From Clostridia bacterium (GTDB lineage Bacteria > Bacillota > Peptococcia > DRI-13 > UBA5745), in assembly GCA_018436095.1 (NCBI GenBank), contig JAHDMJ010000008.1:124001-188000 (forward strand): DNA of 64,000 nt, given 5' to 3'. Made by a program: the position numbers and the translations under genes. The notes beneath the pieces were generated by a model, which ran no database searches, was not told the origin of the DNA, and saw only the letters and a program-made list of their open reading frames with translations. Every line of letters starts with the position of its first letter. Position 1 is the stretch's first letter. Positions 5,230-62,492 of the stretch are shown here, in pieces.

Positions 5230-6291
5230 TTGACGACAAAGCATCTGGTTTTGGCCAGGCTGGAGAGGGAGCGAGGCAGCCTCATATCCGGCAGTGAGCT
5301 GGCCAAAGCTTTAGGAGTAAGCCGCAACGCTGTCTGGAAAGCCATAAAGGAATTGCAGAAGGAAGGCCACCGCATTAATGGCCAGACCAATGGCGGCTAC
5401 CGTTTGCGGGAGGATAATGATATTTTGTCGGCGGCGGGTATAGCGCCTTATCTGCAGGCGGATATTGCCCCAACCAATATTCAAGTCTTTCCAAGCCTCA
5501 ATTCCACCAATGACCTGGCTAAGGAAAAGGCTTTGGCAGGGGCAGCAGCCGGCACGGTAATTCTTGCGGAAGAGCAAACAAAAGGCAAAGGCCGAATGGG
5601 CCGTAGCTATTATTCTCCTGCCGGCGCCGGTATCTATCTCAGCATGATTTTGCGGCCAAAGCTAGCCGGCAGCCAGGCCCTGCTTTTGACTACGGGAGTG
5701 GCGGTGGCTGCTGCCCAAGCTATTGAGGAATTATGGGATTGCCGGGTTAAGATTAAATGGGTTAATGATTTATACGTGGAAGGCAAAAAGGTCGCCGGTA
5801 TTTTGACGGAAGCAGCTACCAATTGGGAGACAGGCATAGTCGATCATGTGGTTTTAGGGGTGGGGATTAACGTCAGATCCAGCCGGGAAGGTTTTCCTAT
5901 GGAGTTGGCCCATAAAGCGGGGGTTCTTTGCCCGGAAGGACCGGCTGCAGCAGATGAAGAAGCTAACCCGGATCAAAAACAGCAGCTAAGAGGAAAGCTG
6001 CTGCGCAATCCTTTAGCTGCAGCATTAATTAATCGTATATGGCAAATGGCCAAGTCATTAGAAGAGCAACCGGGGCCGGCAGCCGCAGAACTGATAAACG
6101 AAGCCCGCCGGCGCTCCTGCGTATTGGGCAAACAAGTGCTGATTGAAGGCTATGAAGGGCTGAATCAGGCTAAGGCGGTGGACATTAATGAATGGGGATT
6201 TTTGATTGTAGAGGATCAGCAGGGCTGCCGCCACATATTAAACACAGGGGAAATCAGTCTGCGTAATCAAGAAGGCCAAAGCTGGCAATAA
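5230..6291 (+). CDS. birA: Bifunctional biotin ligase / biotin operon repressor BirA
   Basis: Activates biotin as biotinyl-AMP and attaches it to carboxylase carrier proteins; the N-terminal winged helix lets it act as a repressor. The HTH is at residues 1-60 (SGSELAKALGVSRNAVWKAI). The ligase domain shows KGKGRMGRSYYSP (about 120-132) and KWVNDLYVEGKKVAGIL. The C-terminal domain is of SH3 type. The start is TTG at 5230, placed 9 bases after AAAGGGGG. An ATG-TCT-TGA mini-frame (5225-5233) overlaps this start. A hydrophilic insert (about residues 235-262) interrupts the catalytic domain. bioY follows 47 bases downstream, so regulator and transporter are co-transcribed. Confidence 0.95.
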   Translation: MTTKHLVLARLERERGSLISGSELAKALGVSRNAVWKAIKELQKEGHRINGQTNGGYRLREDNDILSAAGIAPYLQADIAPTNIQVFPSLNSTNDLAKEKALAGAAAGTVILAEEQTKGKGRMGRSYYSPAGAGIYLSMILRPKLAGSQALLLTTGVAVAAAQAIEELWDCRVKIKWVNDLYVEGKKVAGILTEAATNWETGIVDHVVLGVGINVRSSREGFPMELAHKAGVLCPEGPAAADEEANPDQKQQLRGKLLRNPLAAALINRIWQMAKSLEEQPGPAAAELINEARRRSCVLGKQVLIEGYEGLNQAKAVDINEWGFLIVEDQQGCRHILNTGEISLRNQEGQSWQ

Positions 6292-24544: not shown

Positions 24545-24816
24545 AAAAATCCTTTCGTCCCTTTGCAATGTCTGCAAAGAGACGAAAGGATATGACTCCT
24601 TACGCGGTACCACTCTTCTTCATTCTCTACGAATGCACTTTACGAGATGCTATCACATCTCTGCCATTATAACGGAGGCAACCGTCTGCACCTACTAAGC
24701 CCGGTTCGGCACAGCCACTCAGTGGCCAGTTCGGCAGCTTATACACTTATTGCCTCGCACCAAACGGCAACTCTCTGTAAGGACAATGCTGCTTACTACT
24801 CCACGTCTTCATGTTT
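24545..24816 (-). ncRNA. T-box leader, specifier read as Leu (CUG)
   Basis: On the minus strand the leader holds the T-box sequence AGAGTGGTACCGCG (about 24603-24616), followed by a terminator (24550-24590, CCTTTCGTC... arms) and a T-run. Upstream is a stem I with AGAGAG and the GGTGCGA apical loop. The specifier loop lies between GTGG/CCAC and GCAGC/GCTGC stems, with 5' strand AGTAGTAA and 3' strand CGAACTGG. Reading GAA-NNN-purine gives CTG, a Leu codon. The T-box bulge TGGT fits a tRNA with discriminator A, as in tRNA-Leu, and argues against Trp. Uncharged tRNA should prevent termination. Confidence 0.85.
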
Positions 24817-24822
24817 GAAGAC

Positions 24823-28913: not shown

Positions 28914-28920
28914 CATTATG

Positions 28921-29010
28921 AAACAGGGGAGCTTGTAAAGCAGGCTGAGAGGAAGTGGTTAAACTTCGACCCTTTTACCTGATGCGGATAATGCCGCCGT
29001 AGGAAGCTAT
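28921..29010 (+). ncRNA. TPP riboswitch (THI element)
   Basis: The aptamer shows the conserved blocks in order: CAGGGGAGC, GCTGAGAGG, GACCCTTTTACCTGATGCGGATAATGCCGCCGTAGGAAGC (given here as landmarks at 28943-29008). It binds thiamine pyrophosphate and normally turns off thiamine genes. A possible terminator (GGAGGCG...CGGCTCC then TGTTTTTT, about 29024-29056) follows. It controls thiW, a thiamine-precursor transporter. Confidence 0.95.
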
Positions 29011-29059
29011 AGATTGATTCTTGCGGAGGCGTCACAGCAGGCGGCTCCTGTTTTTTGCC

Positions 29060-52654: not shown

Positions 52655-52872
52655 TGAGAGACATGAAATTCTTTGGGGAGGCTAAAAAGCTTGATGATAT
52701 CTATGATTTTTTATTCAATAAGCCATTTTTGCAGATGTGAAAGAGAGCGCAAGCTAAAAGAATTTCTGTTGGTTTTTTCAACATGCGTTGTTTTTTTAGA
52801 CACTTCTTGCTATACTGAATAAAGAAATATTTCTGTATATTCTTTCCCTTTTGAATAACAGGAGGCAATGTG

Positions 52873-54216
52873 ATGGATTTTCGCAGCTTTGATATGCTTA
52901 CTATTGGAATCCTGGCAGTTGATACTAAGGGGAAAATCATCTATTTGAACGACGCCTATGCGGCTTTTTTGGAAAGGACAAAGGAAGAGATCTTGGGCCA
53001 GCATATCCGTAAGATCCTGCCCCATACCCATCTGGATCATGTTTGCCAAAGCGGCATAGCGGAAATCGGTGTCTGGCAAAAGACTGAAAAAGGTCATCTT
53101 TTTGGTAACCGCCTGCCTATTTATGAAGAAGGCGTCTTAAAAGGGGCTTTGGCGGAGTTGGTAATTGAAAGCCACGAAGCCCTGGACGATTTGCGGACAA
53201 AGCTTATTGAGCGGGAATCCCAAATCAAATATCTTACCGATCAATTGAAAACCAGCTCCGCTATCGGAACGGTAAGATTCATTTATCGTTCCTCCATTAT
53301 GGATAAGATATATAGGAACATTCGGAAAGTAGCCCCCTTATTTGACACGGTTTTGATCTCCGGCGAAACAGGTACCGGTAAAGAAGTGGCGGCGGATTTG
53401 CTTTGGCGGCTAAGCAACCGGGCCGACAGCCCCTTTATCAAAATCAACTGCGCTTCTTTGCCTTTAGATTTAATGGAGTCGGAGCTTTTTGGTTATGAGA
53501 AGGGAGCTTTTACCGGTGCAAGTCCCAACGGCAAACCGGGAAAATTTGAATTGGCCGACGGTGGCGTATTGTTTTTGGATGAGATTACTTCCATGCCTCT
53601 TCCCATGCAGGCGAAGCTGCTGCGGGTGCTGCAGGATAAAGAAGTGGAGCGATTGGGCGCCATTAAAAAGAAAAAGGTTGATGTGAAAATCATTGCGGCC
53701 ACCAATGATCATATACCGGATATGATCAAAAAGCAAAAATTCCGGGAGGACTTATATTACCGGTTGAATGTGGTAAATGTGCATCTGCCTCCATTGCGAG
53801 AGCGTAAAGAAGATATTCTCCTTTTAGCTGAATATTTTCTGAAAGAATATGGCCGGCGATTTAATAAGCCTGTGCTTTCCCTTACTCCCGCTGTGGCCGG
53901 AATCCTGGAAAACTATGGCTGGCCGGGAAATGTAAGAGAGCTGAAAAATATGATGGAGCGGTTTGTCATCATGTGCGACGGTACGGATATCACCTATAGC
54001 GATTTAGCGGAATACACCACCTTTTTAGCTGCTGCGGCAGAAGATACGGTTGGGTTGAAGCATGTAGTGACCCATACGGAGAAAAACGTAATTTTGGATG
54101 CTTTGGAGCGGGCCGGCGGCAACAAGGCAAAGGCCGCTAAATTATTGGGAATCAACCGTTCTACTTTATACAGCAAGCTGGCAAAACTGGAGGCTGCCGA
54201 TGAGGAATTGGCTTGA
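52873..54216 (+). CDS. PAS-domain sigma-54-dependent transcriptional activator
   Basis: A 447-residue bacterial enhancer-binding protein. PAS domain at about 1-115 (FDMLTIGILAVDTKGKIIYLNDAYAAFL), short coiled linker, then AAA+ domain with Walker A GETGTGKE (about 161-168) and an intact GAFTGA loop (EKGAFTGAS, needed to contact sigma-54). Walker B is GGVLFLDEI, and the arginine-rich region follows. A C-terminal Fis-type HTH (NKAKAAKLLGINRSTLYSKLAKL) ends the protein. AGGAGG lies 7 bases before ATG 52873. It is divergent from the sigma-54 promoter at 52639-52654 and probably activates that operon; the PAS ligand is unknown. Confidence 0.95.
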   Translation: MDFRSFDMLTIGILAVDTKGKIIYLNDAYAAFLERTKEEILGQHIRKILPHTHLDHVCQSGIAEIGVWQKTEKGHLFGNRLPIYEEGVLKGALAELVIESHEALDDLRTKLIERESQIKYLTDQLKTSSAIGTVRFIYRSSIMDKIYRNIRKVAPLFDTVLISGETGTGKEVAADLLWRLSNRADSPFIKINCASLPLDLMESELFGYEKGAFTGASPNGKPGKFELADGGVLFLDEITSMPLPMQAKLLRVLQDKEVERLGAIKKKKVDVKIIAATNDHIPDMIKKQKFREDLYYRLNVVNVHLPPLRERKEDILLLAEYFLKEYGRRFNKPVLSLTPAVAGILENYGWPGNVRELKNMMERFVIMCDGTDITYSDLAEYTTFLAAAAEDTVGLKHVVTHTEKNVILDALERAGGNKAKAAKLLGINRSTLYSKLAKLEAADEELA

Positions 54217-54241
54217 CACAGAGCCTGTAAAAGGATATGCT
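54213..54241 (+). promoter_or_regulatory. Promoter of the guaD transcript
   Basis: TTGACA (54213-54218, overlapping the activator stop codon) and TATGCT (54236-54241) are 17 bases apart, giving a start near 54248, about 20 bases before the riboswitch aptamer. Confidence 0.65.
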
Positions 54242-54267
54242 AAACATAGAAATTGAATAGCTTTTTT

Positions 54268-54338
54268 CTGACTTGTATATGTCCGTAATATGGGCGGACG
54301 TTTCTACAGACTGCCAAAAACAGTTGTCTATAAGTCGC
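54268..54338 (+). ncRNA. Purine riboswitch aptamer, guanine type (C74)
   Basis: A complete three-way junction: P1 54270-54276 with 54330-54336. P2 is GTCCG/CGGAC with loop AATATGG. J2/3 is GTTTCTAC (54300-54307). P3 is 54308-54313 with 54321-54326, and loop CCAAAAA. The GG and CC of the two loops allow the conserved kissing contact. The specificity base is C (54328), predicting guanine or hypoxanthine. Unusual points: position 73 is U instead of A, and the junction-side P3 pair is A against G. It lies upstream of guanine deaminase. Confidence 0.88.
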
Positions 54339-54390
54339 TGAGCTGCCGGCAAGCAGCAGGCGGCCAGGGCTTGTTTTTGGCAGTTTTTTT
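54308..54390 (+). terminator. Riboswitch-controlled terminator using the aptamer P3 arm
   Basis: ACTGCCAAAAACA (54310-54322, the P3 5' strand plus loop L3) is perfectly complementary over 13 bases to TGTTTTTGGCAGT (54372-54384), which is followed by seven T in total. Formation of this stem destroys P3 and the loop contact, so aptamer and terminator exclude each other. The enclosed part contains a small GCTGC/GCAGC hairpin. Confidence 0.8.
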
Positions 54391-54411
54391 AACAAAGAAA
54401 GGGGGAAAGTT

Positions 54412-55710
54412 ATGGGAAAGGATTTTGTATTAAAGGGGAATATTTGTTACAGCAAAAGCGCAAAAGAACTGGCTTTGGTAGCCGATGGCTACCTGGTTTG
54501 CGAAGAAGGCTTATGCACCGGTGTTTTTCAGCAGTTGCCTCAGCAATATCAACATTTGCCTTTGGAAGATTGTACGGGCAAGATGATCCTGCCGGGGCTG
54601 GTGGATATTCATGTTCATGCTCCTCAGTATGCTTTTCGCTGCTTAGGCATGGATATGGAGCTGATTGAATGGCTGTCCCATTATGCTTTCCCCGAAGAAG
54701 CCAAATACAAAGACTTAGCTTATGCGGAGAAAGCCTACGGCAGTTTTGTGGAAGACCTGCGGCAGGGACCTAATACCAGGGCGGCCGTCTTCGCCACCTG
54801 CCATGTGCCGGCCAGTTTGCTGCTGATGGATATGCTGGAAGCTTCCGGCCTGGTAACCTTAGTAGGCAAAGTCAATATGGACCGCAACAGCCATCCGCAG
54901 CTGCAGGAGTCCGGCCCGGAGGCCTCAGCCCGGGATACTGAAGCTTGGGTCAGCCTGATTTTAACAGAGAAGGCCTATCATAATACGGCGCCTATCCTGA
55001 CGCCCCGCTTCATCCCTTCCTGCAGTGACGGGCTGATGGTCAAATTAAAGGAAATCCAACAAAAATACGGCTTGCCTGTTCAATCTCATTTATCGGAAAA
55101 CAAGGGTGAGATTGCCTGGGTACGGGAGCTTTGTCCCGATGCGGCCAACTATAGCGCAGCCTATGATTATTTTGGTCTTTTCGGCGGCTCGGACACACCT
55201 ACCATTATGGCCCATTGCGTCTGGATGGAAGAAGAGGAGCTGGCTCTTATGGCAGAGCGGCAGGTCTTTGTGGCCCATTGTCCCCAATCCAATATGAACC
55301 TGGCCTCCGGTATTGCTCCTATCCGCCGTTTCCTGGACAGGGGTATTCCGGTGGGCTTAGGCAGCGATGTGGCCGGAGGCTGTCATACCTCTATCTTCCG
55401 GGCCATGAGCGACGCCATTCAGGTATCAAAGCTTTATTGGCGGCTGCTGGATCAAAATGAGGCGCCTCTGGCTATCGAGGAAGCGTTTTATCTGGGCACC
55501 ATGGGGGGCGGCGCCTTTTTCGGCAAAGTCGGTTCTTTCCTGCCTTCTTATGAATTCGATGCTTTAGTTATCGATGACAGTAAGCTGGAGGCTCCTTATG
55601 ATTTGAGTTTAAATGAACGTTTGGCCAGAATTATCTATGACCCGGACAGATGTATTTTGGAACGAAAATTTGTTCGGGGCAGGGATGTTTTGCACAAGGC
55701 AGCTTTATGA
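54412..55710 (+). CDS. guaD: Guanine deaminase
   Basis: Converts guanine to xanthine and ammonia. A 432-residue amidohydrolase with the zinc motif DIHVHAPQ (about residues 65-72), the family-typical GMDMELIEWLSHYAFPEEAKY (about 79-99), PRFIPSCSD, QSHLSENKGEIAWV (about 224-237), the MAHCVWM histidine and VGLGSDVAGG with the catalytic Asp. GGGGGAAAG precedes the ATG. It starts the purine operon, 37 bases before the Moco subunit, so its product xanthine feeds the next enzyme. Controlled by the riboswitch at 54268-54390. Confidence 0.93.
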   Translation: MGKDFVLKGNICYSKSAKELALVADGYLVCEEGLCTGVFQQLPQQYQHLPLEDCTGKMILPGLVDIHVHAPQYAFRCLGMDMELIEWLSHYAFPEEAKYKDLAYAEKAYGSFVEDLRQGPNTRAAVFATCHVPASLLLMDMLEASGLVTLVGKVNMDRNSHPQLQESGPEASARDTEAWVSLILTEKAYHNTAPILTPRFIPSCSDGLMVKLKEIQQKYGLPVQSHLSENKGEIAWVRELCPDAANYSAAYDYFGLFGGSDTPTIMAHCVWMEEEELALMAERQVFVAHCPQSNMNLASGIAPIRRFLDRGIPVGLGSDVAGGCHTSIFRAMSDAIQVSKLYWRLLDQNEAPLAIEEAFYLGTMGGGAFFGKVGSFLPSYEFDALVIDDSKLEAPYDLSLNERLARIIYDPDRCILERKFVRGRDVLHKAAL

Positions 55711-55747: not shown

Positions 55748-58039
55748 ATGACAGTAGGAGAAAGAAAAATCAGGGTGGACGCTTTTGCCAAGGTTACCGG
55801 CCAGGCAAAATATACGGAGGATCTTTTGCCGGTAAATCATTTGACGGCTATGCTTTTGCGCAGTACTGTGGCAAACGGCCTCGTTACTAAAATGGACGTT
55901 TCCAAAGCCCGGCAAGTGAAGGGGGTAGTGCGTATCGTCACCTGCTTTGAGGTGCCGGACATTACCTTTCCCACAGCCGGCCATCCTTGGTCCACAGATC
56001 CCGGCCATCAGGATGTGGCGGACCGGAGGCTGCTCAATCGCCGGGTTCGCTATTACGGCGATGAGATTGCAGCGGTAATAGCGGAAGATGAATTGGCCTG
56101 CAAAGAAGCTTTAAGCCTCATCAACGTGGAATATGAAGAATATCATCCATTGCTGACACCCGCCCAGGCCATGGCGCCCGGGGCGGCGGCTATTCAGGAG
56201 GACTTTCCCGGCAATGTGCTGAAAGCAACTTCCTACAGCTTCGGCGCTTTCGATTGGGCAAACCCCGGTGAAGGCATCAAGATTATTGAAGGAGATTACC
56301 ACACTCAGGCCGTTCAGCATTGCCATATCGAAAAACCGGTGAGCTACGCCTACATGGACAATGAACGGATCGTCGTCGTCAGCTCCACTCAGATTCCTCA
56401 TATCGTCCGCCGGGTCATCGGCCAGGCCTTAGGCATCGGCTGGGGCAAGATCAGGGTAATCAAGCCTTACATCGGCGGCGGCTTCGGCAATAAGCAGGAG
56501 GTGCTCTATGAGCCCCTCAATGCCTATCTCACCACTTTAGTGGGCGGCCGTGCCGTGCTCTTGGCTATTTCCAGGGAAGAGACGTTTTACGCCACCAGAA
56601 TCCGCCACAGCATTGATTTTCATATCAAAACCGCCGTTGATCAAAAGGGCCGGTTTTTAGCCCGGCAGGTAGAGGCCATATCAAACCAGGGAGGCTATGC
56701 TTCCCATGGCCACGCCATTGTGGCCAATGCCGTCAACGGTTTTCGCCATCTCTATCAGTCGGAAAAGCTGGTGGAGGGCAAGGCCTATACCGTCTACACC
56801 AATCTGCCCAGCGCCGGCGCCATGCGGGGTTATGGCATACCCCAGATCAGCTTTGCTATGGAATCTCACATAGAAGATATTGCCGCCGGGCTGGGTATGG
56901 ACCCCCTGACTTTGCGGCGGCAAAACGCTATGCAGGCCGGTTACGTGGATCCCGGCACCGGCATTACCTGCCACAGCTCCGGCCTGGATGAATGCATGGA
57001 AAAAGGGCGGCAGCTTATTGACTGGGACAGCAAGCGCCAGGCTTACAGCCGGCAGACCGGCAATGTACGCCGGGGAGTGGGTATGGCCATTTTCTCTTAT
57101 AAGACAGGGGTTTATCCCATATCCCTGGAAACTTCCAGCTGCCGGATGATTCTCAACCAGGACGGTACCGCCCAGCTCCATATGGGAGCCACAGAAATCG
57201 GCCAGGGAGCGGATACAGTCTTAACCCAGATGGCGGCAGAAGCGGCAGGCTTGCGTTTTGAGAATGTACATGTTGTTTCTTTCCAGGATACGGATGTGGC
57301 TCCTTTTGATACCGGCGCCTATGCTTCCCGCCAGACTTATGTAAGCGGCAAAGCCGTCGTCAAAACGGCTAAACTTTTCAAGGCCAGGATTCTGGAATAC
57401 TGTGCCGATTTGCTGCAAAGGGACAAGGAGGATCTGGATCTTAAGGATTCGCAAATACTGGACCGCCAGACGGGGGAGGTGCTTTCCGAATTGGGGCCAT
57501 TGGCTCTGGAAGCCTTTTACAGCCTGGACAAATCCCTCCATATTACAGCGGAAAGCACCAATCACTGCAAGGAAAATACATATTCCTTCGGCGCCTGTTT
57601 TGCCGAGGTAGAAGTAGATATTGCTTTGGGCAAGGTCAAAGTTTTGGAACTGCTGGATGTCCATGACAGCGGACGGCTAATCAACCCTCAGCTTGCCGAA
57701 GCTCAGGTCCACGGCGGCATGAGCATGGGTTTGGGCTATGCCTTCAGCGAACAGCTCCTTTATGATGCTAAAGGCCGCATGCTGAACGGCAACTTTTTGG
57801 ATTATAAAATCGGCACCAGTATGGATACGCCGGAGCTGCAAGTGGACTTTGTGGAGACCGATGATCCTACAGGCCCCTTTGGCAACAAGTCCTTGGGTGA
57901 GCCGCCTACGATTCCTCAATCCGGCGCTTTGCGCAATGCTATTTACCATGCTACCGGCGTAGCCCTCAACAGCTTGCCGATGTCCCCCCAGCGGCTCATT
58001 GAAGAATTTGCTGTCGCCGGGCTTTTGGGAAAGGAGTGA
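55748..58039 (+). CDS. xdhA: Xanthine dehydrogenase, molybdenum-binding subunit
   Basis: Large subunit of a molybdenum hydroxylase, 763 residues, close to the length of E. coli XdhA. Landmarks: GERKIRVDAFAKVTGQAKYTEDL at the start, IGGGFGNKQEV (about 241-251), NLPSAGAMRGYGIPQ (about 352-366), GATEIGQGADTVLTQMAAE (about 479-497), AYASRQTYVSGKAVV and the catalytic-Glu segment KSLGEPPTIPQSG (about 715-727). It hydroxylates xanthine to urate (or hypoxanthine to xanthine) with electrons passed to the FAD/2Fe-2S subunit encoded next. AAAGGGGGG precedes the ATG. Confidence 0.88.
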   Translation: MTVGERKIRVDAFAKVTGQAKYTEDLLPVNHLTAMLLRSTVANGLVTKMDVSKARQVKGVVRIVTCFEVPDITFPTAGHPWSTDPGHQDVADRRLLNRRVRYYGDEIAAVIAEDELACKEALSLINVEYEEYHPLLTPAQAMAPGAAAIQEDFPGNVLKATSYSFGAFDWANPGEGIKIIEGDYHTQAVQHCHIEKPVSYAYMDNERIVVVSSTQIPHIVRRVIGQALGIGWGKIRVIKPYIGGGFGNKQEVLYEPLNAYLTTLVGGRAVLLAISREETFYATRIRHSIDFHIKTAVDQKGRFLARQVEAISNQGGYASHGHAIVANAVNGFRHLYQSEKLVEGKAYTVYTNLPSAGAMRGYGIPQISFAMESHIEDIAAGLGMDPLTLRRQNAMQAGYVDPGTGITCHSSGLDECMEKGRQLIDWDSKRQAYSRQTGNVRRGVGMAIFSYKTGVYPISLETSSCRMILNQDGTAQLHMGATEIGQGADTVLTQMAAEAAGLRFENVHVVSFQDTDVAPFDTGAYASRQTYVSGKAVVKTAKLFKARILEYCADLLQRDKEDLDLKDSQILDRQTGEVLSELGPLALEAFYSLDKSLHITAESTNHCKENTYSFGACFAEVEVDIALGKVKVLELLDVHDSGRLINPQLAEAQVHGGMSMGLGYAFSEQLLYDAKGRMLNGNFLDYKIGTSMDTPELQVDFVETDDPTGPFGNKSLGEPPTIPQSGALRNAIYHATGVALNSLPMSPQRLIEEFAVAGLLGKE

Positions 58040-58045
58040 GAAGAT

Positions 58046-59533
58046 ATGTTTGCCATTAATAGTTATGTTCAAGCAAAGACCCTGACGGAAGCTTTGCAGT
58101 ATAAGCAAGCAAATCCCAAAGCCCGCTGGATTGCCGGCGGCAGCGACCTGCTGATTCAGATCAGGGAGGGCAAGCTGGCGGTTGCCGATCTTATTGCTAT
58201 CCGGGATATTCCGGAGCTTACGGGCATTACCTTGGATGGGGCGGAGAATATCCATATCGGACCTTTATCAACTTTTGGCCAGATAGCTGCCGACCCGGTC
58301 ATCCAAAGCAGAATTCCCCTGCTGGGCCGGGCGGTGGATCAGGCCGGCGGCCCCCAACTGCGAAACGTAGGCACCATCGGCGGCAATATTTGCAATGGGG
58401 CTACCAGCGCCGACAGCGCTGCCAGCCTTTTTGTGCTGGAGGCCGTGCTGGTTTTAACCCGGCTGGATGAAGCCGGCCGTTTGGTCAATGAAGAAAAGGC
58501 CATCGGCGGCTTTTATCAGGGCCCCGGCCGGGTGGATATAGCTCCTGATCAAATGCTGACGGATATTTATATCCCCAAAGAGAAATACCAGAACTTTTTT
58601 GGCCATTATACGAAATACTCCATGCGCAACGCCATGGATATCGCCACTTTAGGCTGCGCCGTTTACAGCCGCTTTAGCGATGACTTGTCAAGAATTGAAG
58701 AGGTGCGCCTGGCTTACGGCGTAGCCGGCCCCACACCCTGCCGCTGCCCCCAGGCCGAAAAAGCCTTGATTGGGATGGAGCCGGGGGAAGAAGCCTTCCG
58801 TAAATTAGGCAGCCTGGCTTTAGAAGAAATTAATCCCCGGGATTCCTGGCGGGCTTCCCGCTCTTTCCGGCTGCAGTTGGCCGAAGAGCTGGCTTACCGC
58901 AGCGGCCTGGCTTGCTTTGAAGAAGCCCGGCTGGCCAAGGGGGCTGCCGGCGGGCAAGGCTCTGCCAGGGCGGAGACTGCCTTGAAAGAAAGTGCCGGCT
59001 TGAAAGAGGGGGCCGCTCCGGCGCAAGAAGCGGAGAAGGCCCCGGCAGGTTTCGGCGATCAGCGCCGCTGGTTTATGAGCTGTACCGTTAACGGCAGGCC
59101 TGTGGAAGTGGCCATCGATAACCGGGAATCCCTGGCGGACATGCTGCGCAATCATCTGGGGCTGACCAGCGTCAAGAAGGGCTGTGATGTGGGAGAATGC
59201 GGCGCTTGCACTGTTTTGGTGGATGGCAAATCCATCGATTCCTGCATTTATCTGGCCCGCTGGGCCGAAGGCAAGCATATTTTGACCACCGAAGGCCTGC
59301 GGGGTGCGGAAAACGAATTATCCATCGTCCAGCAAGCGTTTATTGATGAAGCAGCCGTACAATGCGGCTTTTGCACGCCGGGCCTGATCATGACGGCCAC
59401 GGAGATCGTCGACAGCGGCCGCCGCTATAGCCGGGAGGAATTACGGCGGTTGATTTCCGGCCATCTTTGCCGCTGCACCGGCTACCAAAACATCTTAAAT
59501 GCGGTGGAAAAGGTGGCAGGCATAGAGAAGTGA
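58046..59533 (+). CDS. Fused FAD and 2Fe-2S subunit of xanthine dehydrogenase
   Basis: A 495-residue fusion. Residues 1-290 match the CoxM-type FAD subunit (AGGSDLLIQIREG, then GGPQLRNVGTIGGNICNGATSADS). About 300-340 is an Ala/Gly/Glu-rich linker. Residues 343-495 match the small subunit with a plant-type 2Fe-2S site (GCDVGECGACTVLVDG) and a second site (CGFCTPG and CRCTG). It thus combines the roles of E. coli XdhB and XdhC in the order FAD then Fe-S, the reverse of the order in animal xanthine dehydrogenase. Its stop overlaps the SDR start by four bases (GTGA). Confidence 0.9.
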   Translation: MFAINSYVQAKTLTEALQYKQANPKARWIAGGSDLLIQIREGKLAVADLIAIRDIPELTGITLDGAENIHIGPLSTFGQIAADPVIQSRIPLLGRAVDQAGGPQLRNVGTIGGNICNGATSADSAASLFVLEAVLVLTRLDEAGRLVNEEKAIGGFYQGPGRVDIAPDQMLTDIYIPKEKYQNFFGHYTKYSMRNAMDIATLGCAVYSRFSDDLSRIEEVRLAYGVAGPTPCRCPQAEKALIGMEPGEEAFRKLGSLALEEINPRDSWRASRSFRLQLAEELAYRSGLACFEEARLAKGAAGGQGSARAETALKESAGLKEGAAPAQEAEKAPAGFGDQRRWFMSCTVNGRPVEVAIDNRESLADMLRNHLGLTSVKKGCDVGECGACTVLVDGKSIDSCIYLARWAEGKHILTTEGLRGAENELSIVQQAFIDEAAVQCGFCTPGLIMTATEIVDSGRRYSREELRRLISGHLCRCTGYQNILNAVEKVAGIEK

Positions 59534-60264
59534 AAAAAACCGTTCTCATTACCGGCGCTTCCGGCGGCATCGGCCAGGCTCTGGTCCGCTGCTTTGGAGC
59601 AGCCGGCTACCAAATCGCCATACATTACCACAAAAACCGCCGGGGAGCAGAAGCTGCCCGGCAAGCCGCTGGGGCAGCAGGAGCCGTTGCTCAGTGTTAT
59701 GGGGCGGATATTCGCCATAGCCGGGAGGTGGAGGCTATGGTGGCCAAAGCAGAGGCGGAGCTGGGGGAAATTACCCATTTAATTAACAATGCCGGCTTTG
59801 GCCAGCAAAAGCTCTTTACCGAGATCAGCGACAGCGAATGGGAAGATATGTTTGCCGTCCACGTTCACGGCGCCTTTTACTGCAGCAGGGAAGTGCTGCC
59901 TGCCATGATCCGCCGGCAAAAAGGCTCCATCATTAATATTTCCTCCATTTGGGGCCAAACCGGCGCCTCCTGTGAAGTTCATTACTCCGCCGCCAAAGCG
60001 GCTCTTGAAGGTATGACTAAAGCCCTGGCCAAAGAGCTGGGGCCTTCGGGTATCCGGGTTAATGCCTTGGCTCCCGGCGTAATCGACACGCCAATGAATG
60101 GCTGCTTCGATAAAGAAGTGATGGCCCAGTTAGCGGAATCCACCGCCCTGGGCCGTTTAGGCCTGCCGGAGGAAGTGGCCCGGCTGGCATTATTCTTATC
60201 CGGAGAGGAAGCCTCCTACATTACCGGCCAGATTTTTGGTATTAATGGCGGCTTTGTGATTTAG
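59530..60264 (+). CDS. Short-chain dehydrogenase/reductase (FabG-like)
   Basis: A 244-residue SDR. Cofactor motif TGASGGIGQ (about 8-16), NNAGFGQ (about 86-92), catalytic Ser in INISSIWG (about 137-144) and YSAAKAALEG (about 152-161). The GTG at 59530 overlaps the previous stop and fits the usual SDR N-terminus; upstream codons are the Fe-S domain in another frame. Most like 3-oxoacyl-ACP reductase, but its place in a purine operon suggests another keto substrate or simple hitch-hiking. Confidence 0.87.
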   Translation: MKKTVLITGASGGIGQALVRCFGAAGYQIAIHYHKNRRGAEAARQAAGAAGAVAQCYGADIRHSREVEAMVAKAEAELGEITHLINNAGFGQQKLFTEISDSEWEDMFAVHVHGAFYCSREVLPAMIRRQKGSIINISSIWGQTGASCEVHYSAAKAALEGMTKALAKELGPSGIRVNALAPGVIDTPMNGCFDKEVMAQLAESTALGRLGLPEEVARLALFLSGEEASYITGQIFGINGGFVI

Positions 60265-60338
60265 CCATTGAAAAGCAGGACAAACTATCATAAAATAAAA
60301 TATTATAGATTGCCGGCTGCCGGCGGAGGAGAATGAGT

Positions 60339-60914
60339 ATGGAACTATTGAAGAATAGGATTCGCGAGGAGGGCCGTGTGAAAGCCGGCAACATTCTTAA
60401 GGTGGACAGCTTTCTCAACCATCAGATGGATATCAGCCTTTTTAACGAGATGGGCAAGGAATTCAGCCGGCTTTATGCCGGTGAAGGCGTAAACAAAATC
60501 TTGACTTTAGAGGCTTCCGGCATCGGCTTGGCTGTCATCACCGCTCAGCATTTCGGCAATTGTCCTGTAATCTTTGCCAAAAAGACGAAATCAAAAAATC
60601 TTGACGGCGATCTCTACCTGGCCCAGGTTACTTCCTTTACCAGAGGCAATACCTTTGATATCCAGGTAGCCAAAAAGTACCTTGACGCCGGGGACAGAGT
60701 GCTGATCATTGACGACTTTCTGGCCACCGGCGCCGCTCTTTTAGGTATGGTAGATATTGTTGCCCAATCCGGAGCTCATCTGGTGGGGTGCGGTATCGTC
60801 ATTGAGAAAGGGTTTCAAGAAGGCGGCTCCCTGCTGAGGGAGCAAGGGGTCCGGGTGGAATCCCTGGCTATCATTAAAGCCTTCGAAGGCGACCAGGTTA
60901 TTTTTGCCGAATAG
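60339..60914 (+). CDS. xpt: Xanthine phosphoribosyltransferase
   Basis: Converts xanthine and PRPP to XMP, a salvage step in the cytoplasm. The 191-residue protein shows the Xpt start MELLKNRIREEGRVKAGNILKVDSFLNHQ (quoted in part), LTLEASGIGLAVITA (about 60-74) and the PRPP loop VLIIDDFLATGAALLGM (about 123-139). ATG 60339 has GGAGGA at 8 bases, whereas ATG 60333 is too close. Unlike many xpt genes it has no purine or xanthine aptamer directly upstream; it may share the guaD transcript (74-base gap after the SDR gene). Confidence 0.95.
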   Translation: MELLKNRIREEGRVKAGNILKVDSFLNHQMDISLFNEMGKEFSRLYAGEGVNKILTLEASGIGLAVITAQHFGNCPVIFAKKTKSKNLDGDLYLAQVTSFTRGNTFDIQVAKKYLDAGDRVLIIDDFLATGAALLGMVDIVAQSGAHLVGCGIVIEKGFQEGGSLLREQGVRVESLAIIKAFEGDQVIFAE

Positions 60915-60986
60915 CGATGAAAATAAGCGGAAGGCCTTCCAATTTGTATACTGACGCACATCTAAAAATAAGCAAGGAGGATGATC

Positions 60987-62492
60987 ATGGCTTACATTTT
61001 TCCCGAACCTTCCCGTACCTTTGGCGAGTATTTGCTGATTCCCGGCTTTTCTTCCAAGGAGTGTATTCCCGCCAATGTCAGTCTAAAAACTCCTTTGGCC
61101 AAATATAAAAAAGGCCAAAAGCCAGAAATCCTTTTGAATGTCCCTTTAGTTTCGGCCATCATGCAATCGGTTTCCGATGATAAGATGGCTATTGCTTTAG
61201 CTAAAGAAGGGGGCGTATCCTTTATTTTCTGCTCCCAATCCATTGAAAGCCAGACACAAATGGTGGCCAGGGTCAAAAGCTATAAAGCCGGCTTTGTACC
61301 CAGTGATTCCAATATTACACCGGAGAGCACTTTGGAAGAAGTGCTCAAATTGAAAGCCCGAACCGGCCATTCCACTATGCCTGTTACCACAGACGGCACC
61401 CCCAACGGCCGGCTGGTAGGCTTGGTGACCAGCCGGGATTACCGGCCCAGCCGGATGGCTCCCCAGACCAAAGTAAAAACCTTCATGACCAGTTTTGAGG
61501 ATTTGATTTGGGCTCCGGACACCACAACCCTCAGCGAGGCCAACGACATTATTTGGGAACATAAGCTGAATGCTCTGCCTTTGGTGGACAAAGAGCAAAG
61601 GTTAAAATACATCGTGTTCCGTAAAGATTACGACAGCCACAAGGAACATGCCAATGAGCTTTTAGACAGCCAAAAACGTTATCTGGTGGGGGCAGGCATC
61701 AATACCAGAGATTATCAGGAACGGATCCCCGCCCTGGTGGAAGCCGGCGCCAACGTGTTGTGTATAGATTCCTCCGAAGGCCATAGCCAGTGGCAGGGGG
61801 ATACCTTGGCCTGGGCACGGGATAATTACGGCGACAGCGTCAAAATCGGTGCCGGCAATGTGGTGGACCGGGAAGGCTTCCTTTATCTTGTGAAAGCCGG
61901 CGCTGATTTTATTAAAGTAGGTATTGGCGGCGGTTCTATCTGCATCACCCGGGAGCAAAAGGGCATCGGCCGGGGGCAGGCTACGGCTTTAATCGAGGTA
62001 GCTAAAGCCCGGCAGGAGTATTATGAGGAAACCGGTATTTATGTGCCGATTTGTTCCGACGGCGGCATCGTCCATGATTACCACATGACCCTGGCTTTGG
62101 CTATGGGAGCGGATTTCCTGATGCTGGGCCGTTACTTTGCCCGCTTTGACGAAAGCCCCACCAATAAAGTGCTGGTAGGCGGCAATTATATGAAAGAGTA
62201 TTGGGGCGAAGGCTCCAACCGGGCCAGAAACTGGCAGCGCTATGATATGGGCGGCGAAGATAAGCTGTCCTTTGAAGAAGGGGTAGACTCCTACGTGCCT
62301 TACGCCGGCCGTCTTAAAGACAACGTCAGCGTATCGTTAAACAAAGTGAAATCCACCATGTGCAATTGCGGCGTTTTGACCATCCCTGATTTGCAGGAAA
62401 ATGCCCGCCTCACTTTGGTTTCCTCCACCAGCATCGTGGAAGGCAGCCATCACGATGTGGTACTGAAAGAAAGCAAGCAATCCAATTTTTAG
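60987..62492 (+). CDS. guaB: IMP dehydrogenase, Tritrichomonas-like form
   Basis: Oxidises IMP to XMP with NAD+, the committed step to guanine nucleotides. A 501-residue protein with a (beta/alpha)8 barrel interrupted by a CBS pair (about 95-220). The catalytic cysteine loop is [20 protein letters not shown] (about 313-332). The flap carries the Arg-Tyr pair in WQRYDMGGE, followed by [10 protein letters not shown]. The N-terminal YLLIPGFSS and the end (STMCNCG) are strikingly like the protozoan T. foetus enzyme as I remember it. ATG 60987 has AAGGAGG 6 bases upstream. It follows xpt by 72 bases. Confidence 0.93.

Follow-up and report, generated by a model that had tools for sequence, protein, structure and literature searches.

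The window analysed here, a stretch of 64,000 nucleotides of Clostridia bacterium DNA, probably contains a guanine-sensing transcriptional ON switch in front of guaD-xdhA-xdhBC, as judged from sequence and predicted folding. In this leader a guanine aptamer shares one of its strands with a transcription terminator, and the same arrangement recurs, with other letters, upstream of purine-degradation genes in related genomes.

A guanine-type aptamer upstream of guaD

A cmscan search placed a purine-riboswitch aptamer (RF00167) at 54253-54350 (+) with 52.3 bits, the gathering score being 37 (E 5e-6, computed over the whole window). Neither the window nor the host genome has a further purine match. 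Two other RNA elements of the window also score above their Rfam gathering scores, namely a T-box leader at 24575-24818 (-) and a TPP riboswitch at 28915-29022 (+). The initial annotation, made from the letters alone, had reported a full purine aptamer with C at the specificity position before guaD; the match bears this out, with C74 at 54328. The aptamer consists of the following parts:

54269..54337, +: guanine-class purine aptamer with P1/P2/P3 junction, U22, U51, C74 and U73 (sequence and RF00167 match)
54269-54277/54329-54337, +: P1 (sequence and folding)
54281-54286/54294-54299, +: P2 (sequence and folding)
L2, +: AATATGG (sequence)
J2-3, +: GTTTCTAC (sequence)
54309-54313/54321-54325, +: P3 (sequence and folding)
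54314-54320, +: L3, CCAAAAA (sequence)
54327..54328, +: J3-1 with U73 (54327) and C74 (54328), the latter the presumed ligand-pairing base (RF00167 match and comparison of relatives)

Guanine switches contact their ligand through U22, U51 and C74 (PMC9295807). All three are kept in the window, together with a J2-3 of standard length, and these are features of guanine-I membership. The A (or G) that guanine-I aptamers commonly have at position 73 is replaced by U. Several relatives likewise carry U or C there, A or G being commoner. Since position 73 is not a named contact and is variable in relatives, U73 was not treated as disqualifying; its reading as the sign of a new ligand class was rejected because the position varies among many guanine-type aptamers. 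Other memberships were discarded as well: guanine-II because its single-nucleotide J2-3 insertion is absent, xanthine-II because U51G and the J2-3 and J3-1 insertions are absent, and the adenine riboswitches because position 74 is C and not U. P3 is short, with five pairs of which one is G-U.

Genes downstream of the leader

The leader is followed by a string of genes on the same strand:

54412..55710, +: guaD, guanine-deaminase-like amidohydrolase (best match TIGR02967, 326 bits, cut-off 375; PF01979)
55748..58039, +: xdhA, xanthine dehydrogenase (XDH) molybdenum subunit (NF043082, 1198 bits, cut-off 780)
58046..59533, +: xdhB-xdhC fusion, FAD and 2Fe-2S subunits (NF043083, 370 bits, cut-off 310; NF043084, 250 bits, cut-off 217)
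59527..60264, +: short-chain dehydrogenase, part of the gene string (profile searches)
60333..60914, +: xpt, xanthine phosphoribosyltransferase, co-transcription uncertain (profile searches)
60981..62492, +: guaB, IMP dehydrogenase of PRK07107 type (948 bits, cut-off 585)

The gene calls of the guanine deaminase/xanthine dehydrogenase operon thus hold as first annotated, with two amendments: the guaD product scores below the equivalog threshold curated for guanine deaminase, and the string also includes xpt and guaB. Because of these last two genes, the predicted breakdown may partly be salvage from guanine to xanthine. Control of xpt and guaB by the guanine switch is uncertain, as a promoter-like site lies directly before xpt. 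The gene order of the window recurs in a same-genus relative (L047, whose locus ends within guaB) and in L048. On the upstream side, the operon is adjoined by a gene for a PrdR-like sigma-54-dependent regulator (52870-54216), which is 95% identical in the same-genus relative.

This gene content bears on the identity of the ligand. The same ON design could respond naturally to xanthine, hypoxanthine, 8-oxoguanine or a nucleoside instead of guanine, which we regard as unlikely, yet as the most serious of the alternatives. The operon includes xdh and xpt, whose substrates include xanthine and hypoxanthine, and U73 is atypical. Moreover, ligand changes are known among variants of the scaffold, xanthine-II switches being found before allantoinase and XDH genes (PMC9295807), and the guanine switches of C. 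difficile do not all respond alike to guanine, guanosine and xanthine (PMC11477304). Against this stand the retained contacts, a J2-3 that is normal in length and sequence, the lack of both the xanthine-II insertions and U51G, and a guanine-deaminase-like first gene, both in the window and in 13 relatives. Guanine remains the preferred ligand.

Predicted competition of aptamer and terminator for one strand

The remaining parts of the leader are:

54213..54241, +: candidate sigma-70 promoter, TTGACA-17-TATGCT (10/12 consensus matches; 0.6 expected by chance)
54309..54322, +: shared strand, P3 5' strand, L3 and first two nucleotides of the P3 3' strand, doubling as terminator 5' arm (sequence and folding)
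54335..54369, +: inner hairpin region inside the terminator loop, P4-like (folding)
54370..54391, +: terminator 3' arm (54372-54385) and T-run (sequence and folding)
54398..54409, +: ribosome-binding region AAAGGGGGAAAG, outside both switching helices (sequence)

The candidate promoter would put the transcription start at about 54248. Segments 54310-54322 (ACTGCCAAAAACA) and 54372-54384 (TGTTTTTGGCAGT), the latter followed by T's, are exact reverse complements. The 13-base match described at the outset is thus exact, although it is not confined to the P3 5' strand and L3 and also takes in two bases at the beginning of the P3 3' strand. Further pairs on either side extend the terminator stem; the corresponding stem of the same-genus relative is a perfect 16 bp. 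The complementarity score between P3/L3 and the terminator arm is 33.5 in the window, against a mean of 14.1 and a 99th percentile of 22 when the P3/L3 segments of other riboswitches were placed on the window terminator. As in platforms of the pbuE type, the terminator is built from aptamer P3/P1 strands and followed by a T-run.

Folding of the leader gave the terminator as the minimum free energy structure (-54.3 kcal/mol, z -4.5, with 0 shuffles as stable). At full length, this OFF fold compares with -40.6 kcal/mol for the aptamer-enforced ON fold, a gap of about 14 kcal/mol; these values are secondary-structure energies only, without loop-loop contacts, ligand or kinetics. In a series of growing transcripts with 3' ends at 54340-54360, pairing was 0.86-0.93 for P1, 0.99 for P2 and about 0.60 for P3, the last value being computed without tertiary contacts or ligand. 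Once the 3' end reached 54384, pairing of P1 and P3 was 0.00 and that of the terminator stem 0.90. The exclusive pairing from which the ON logic had originally been argued is thereby reproduced: aptamer and terminator folds are mutually exclusive.

The predicted mechanism can be described as follows. RNA polymerase would make the aptamer first, so that the P1/P2/P3 junction folds. Binding of guanine, possibly also of hypoxanthine or xanthine, would hold P1 and P3, the P3/L3 strand would be unavailable as terminator 5' arm, and transcription would run into guaD-xdhA-xdhBC. Without ligand, the new 3' arm would invade P3 and P1 and form the long terminator stem, and transcription would stop at the T-run. 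As guanine would open transcription, a surplus of guanine would induce the steps that turn it into xanthine and further products. The identity of the ligand, the kinetic competition, the direction of the response in the cell and the extent of the operon are what we infer here.

An OFF switch, in which the ligand promotes termination as in most guanine switches, would agree with the commonly lowered expression in described cases (PMC9295807, PMC11477304). Folding of the leader gave no separate antiterminator. The single terminator of the leader recruits aptamer strands for its 5' arm and thereby competes with the ligand-bound fold, which argues against an OFF switch. Leaders of guaB/guaA and of most pur and most xpt genes also look unlike that of the window, their hairpins following the aptamer. 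We consider an OFF switch the least probable of the alternatives, with hardly any chance of being correct, and the ON switch is retained.

Aptamers upstream of other guanine deaminase genes

To place the leader among its relatives, a model built from 43 purine aptamers was run over the 80 loci whose guanine deaminase is closest to that of the window. A purine aptamer was found directly upstream of guaD in 13 of them (L047, L050, L051, L052, L055, L060, L085, L087, L094, L096, L110, L117 and L121). Hosts include Faecalimonas umbilicata (L051), Clostridium sp., Cuneatibacter sp. (L117), Eubacterium aggregans (L094) and E. barkeri; L047 is the same-genus relative and comes from one genome with L039. 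In about 65 of the 80 loci no aptamer was detected, and as these include L048, with the same operon as the window, the association of aptamer and operon is not universal.

A search for the P3-terminator overlap before other guaD genes had been suggested as a check on the initial annotation, and its outcome was favorable. In the window plus the 13 relatives, the P3 5' strand and L3 overlap the arm before the T-run strongly in 10/14. In L085, L087 and L121 (3/14) the P3 3' and P1 3' strands pair with the terminator instead, and in L051 (1/14) the assignment is ambiguous.

Some loci of this set are worth describing separately. L050 and L110 belong to bins labelled Planctomycetaceae, their guaD being about 60% identical to that of the window with a purine aptamer upstream; either mis-binning or transfer may account for this. 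E. aggregans (L094:4275-4347, 5811-5883) and E. barkeri (L096, same coordinates) carry two successive guanine-type aptamers with ON-like overlap, one before an 8-oxoguanine-deaminase-like gene and the other before guaD.

Covariation was described on 20 distinct leaders with strong P3/L3-terminator overlap. Seven positions around L3 (-5 to +1) are paired in 18-20 of the 20 leaders, proportions that are inflated because the leaders were picked for high complementarity. The exchanges observed include G-C/A-T at -4, T-A/C-G at -3 and A-T/T-A/G-C at -2. Selection by score affects neither the existence of these compensatory exchanges nor the comparison of gene classes given below. As the relatives carry the same layout with different letters, the ON prediction appears solid.

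The same observations bear on the proposal that the leader is a ligand-insensitive attenuator, i.e. a decayed aptamer with a constitutive terminator, control being exerted by the upstream sigma-54 regulator or another promoter. It would fit the score of 52 bits, low for the purine family (many relatives reach 75-95 bits), as well as U73 and the PrdR-like regulator gene immediately upstream. On the other hand, the binding core is intact in the window, and core and overlap are retained in the same-genus species as well as in distant relatives whose stem sequences differ, as expected from selection on both states. We judge such decay very improbable, if marginally less so than an OFF switch, and continue with a functional ON switch.

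Comparison across gene classes

We then compared 170 aptamers from the guaD loci and about 200 genomes related to the host, grouped by first downstream gene. Representative gene assignments were checked with NCBIfam, whereby the 'guaD-like' genes of L030 and L205 turned out to be 5'-deoxyadenosine-deaminase-like and the gene behind the aptamer at 4275 of L094 (L094b) 8-oxoguanine-deaminase-like. The score was the best ungapped pairing of P3/L3 with the arm before the T-run, for which no global fold is needed; as controls, P3/L3 segments of other leaders were tried on the same arms. In the genomes examined, guanine-type aptamers lie before about 14 genes for guanine deaminase and about 20 for xanthine dehydrogenase.

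Scores of at least 20 were obtained for 21/41 aptamers before purine-deaminase/XDH genes, a count that misses ON designs using the P3 3'/P1 3' strand (L085, L087, L121) and so understates the ON forms, vs 2/129 before the others, i.e. uptake, synthesis, salvage and unassigned genes (Fisher 1e-13; 5e-12 once duplicates were conservatively removed, the truly independent number being smaller than counted since the loci are related by descent). On the degradation side, this score was reached by deaminase-type amidohydrolases in 13/18 cases, the XDH FAD subunit in 5/8, the XDH molybdenum subunit in 3/12 and adenine deaminase in 0/3; C74 is present in 40 of the 41 aptamers. Among the others it was reached by xpt in 0/13, pur genes in 0/28, guaB/guaA in 0/9, BMP lipoproteins in 0/19, PRT-like genes in 0/2, NCS2 permeases in 1/39 and other genes in 1/19.

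Individual leaders departed from these patterns. The sole exception among the 39 permease leaders is L128:51-152, an NCS2 permease leader with an ON-type P3-terminator overlap. An odd association occurs at L042:1515-1594 (homologous loci L041 and L043), where a guanine-type aptamer with strong P3-terminator-arm pairing precedes an [FeFe]-hydrogenase-like gene. Adenine-type (U74) aptamers with ON-like terminators lie before an adenine deaminase in L192 and before an apparent MFS transporter in L193 and L236. In four loci (L035, L036, L040, L044) P3/J3-1 is altered (GTGGCAACC...TTGCCTACGCTATG in L036); the gene that follows is PRT-like or a permease, and the four possibly form a variant subgroup.

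P3/L3-terminator pairing therefore recurs with compensatory changes before degradation genes and is rare before others, which agrees with the ON reading first given to the window. Altogether, the predicted ON logic of the leader is strongly supported by comparison. In a broader sense, standard guanine aptamers with pbuE-type terminators probably represent a widespread, previously undescribed guanine ON group inducing guanine deaminase, XDH and related deaminases across many Bacillota. One aptamer class would then repress synthesis and uptake and activate breakdown, with the sign set by the gene that it precedes.

Relation to known riboswitches

The closest mechanistic parallel is the pbuE (ydhL) adenine riboswitch of Bacillus subtilis, a transcriptional ON switch as predicted for the window. 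In both, formation of the terminator disrupts P1 and P3 and leads to the more stable fold, in the case of pbuE the most stable state; both have a P4-like hairpin in the terminator loop, and in both the aptamer forms first and the terminator after the 3' arm (PMC7707468). Ligand binding in pbuE acts within the time window of transcription (PMC7707468). The two differ in that pbuE has U74, binds adenine and precedes an efflux pump, whereas the window has C74 and precedes a deaminase/XDH operon.

In the case of guanine-I (xpt-pbuX type, RF00167), aptamer architecture and the contacts U22, U51 and C74 are shared. Guanine-I commonly represses synthesis, salvage and uptake, whereas activation of degradation genes is predicted for the window, which also has U73. 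Guanine-II of Paenibacillus is likewise a C74 guanine aptamer predicted to be ON, but differs in its core by a J2-3 insertion among other changes and precedes phosphoribosyltransferase genes, while J2-3 of the window is standard (PMC9295807). Xanthine-II resembles the window in its ON architecture before purine-degradation genes including XDH (PMC9295807) and differs in the aptamer changes described above. Xanthine-I (NMT1) has purine-oxidation genes in common with the window, its fold being unrelated and its control translational OFF.

The ON direction had been called unusual for a guanine switch. This is fair insofar as guanine riboswitches commonly turn down genes for synthesis, salvage or uptake (PMC9295807) and all four of those in C. 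difficile are OFF (PMC11477304). It is too strong insofar as guanine-II is predicted ON (PMC9295807) and the ON form recurs here. Xanthine-II and 2'-dG-III switches are also predicted ON ahead of degradation genes (PMC9295807), and according to a 2020 paper no class predominantly regulating enzymes of purine-base degradation was known before the xanthine-I riboswitch. The literature searched contained no report of a guanine riboswitch with guanine deaminase or xanthine dehydrogenase, an earlier mention elsewhere being possible. Within that literature the parts, a guanine aptamer and a pbuE-type platform, are known, and their joining to degradation genes is apparently new.

Guanine switches are the textbook OFF example. 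If the present reading is true, a recurring guanine ON form would mean that it is the expression platform which fixes the sign of regulation, and that this sign tracks gene function. It would also provide a natural guanine-induced switch, for use in synthetic biology and for comparison with pbuE. At the RNA level, it would explain the response to a surplus of guanine in anaerobes, among them Faecalimonas umbilicata, Eubacterium barkeri and E. aggregans.
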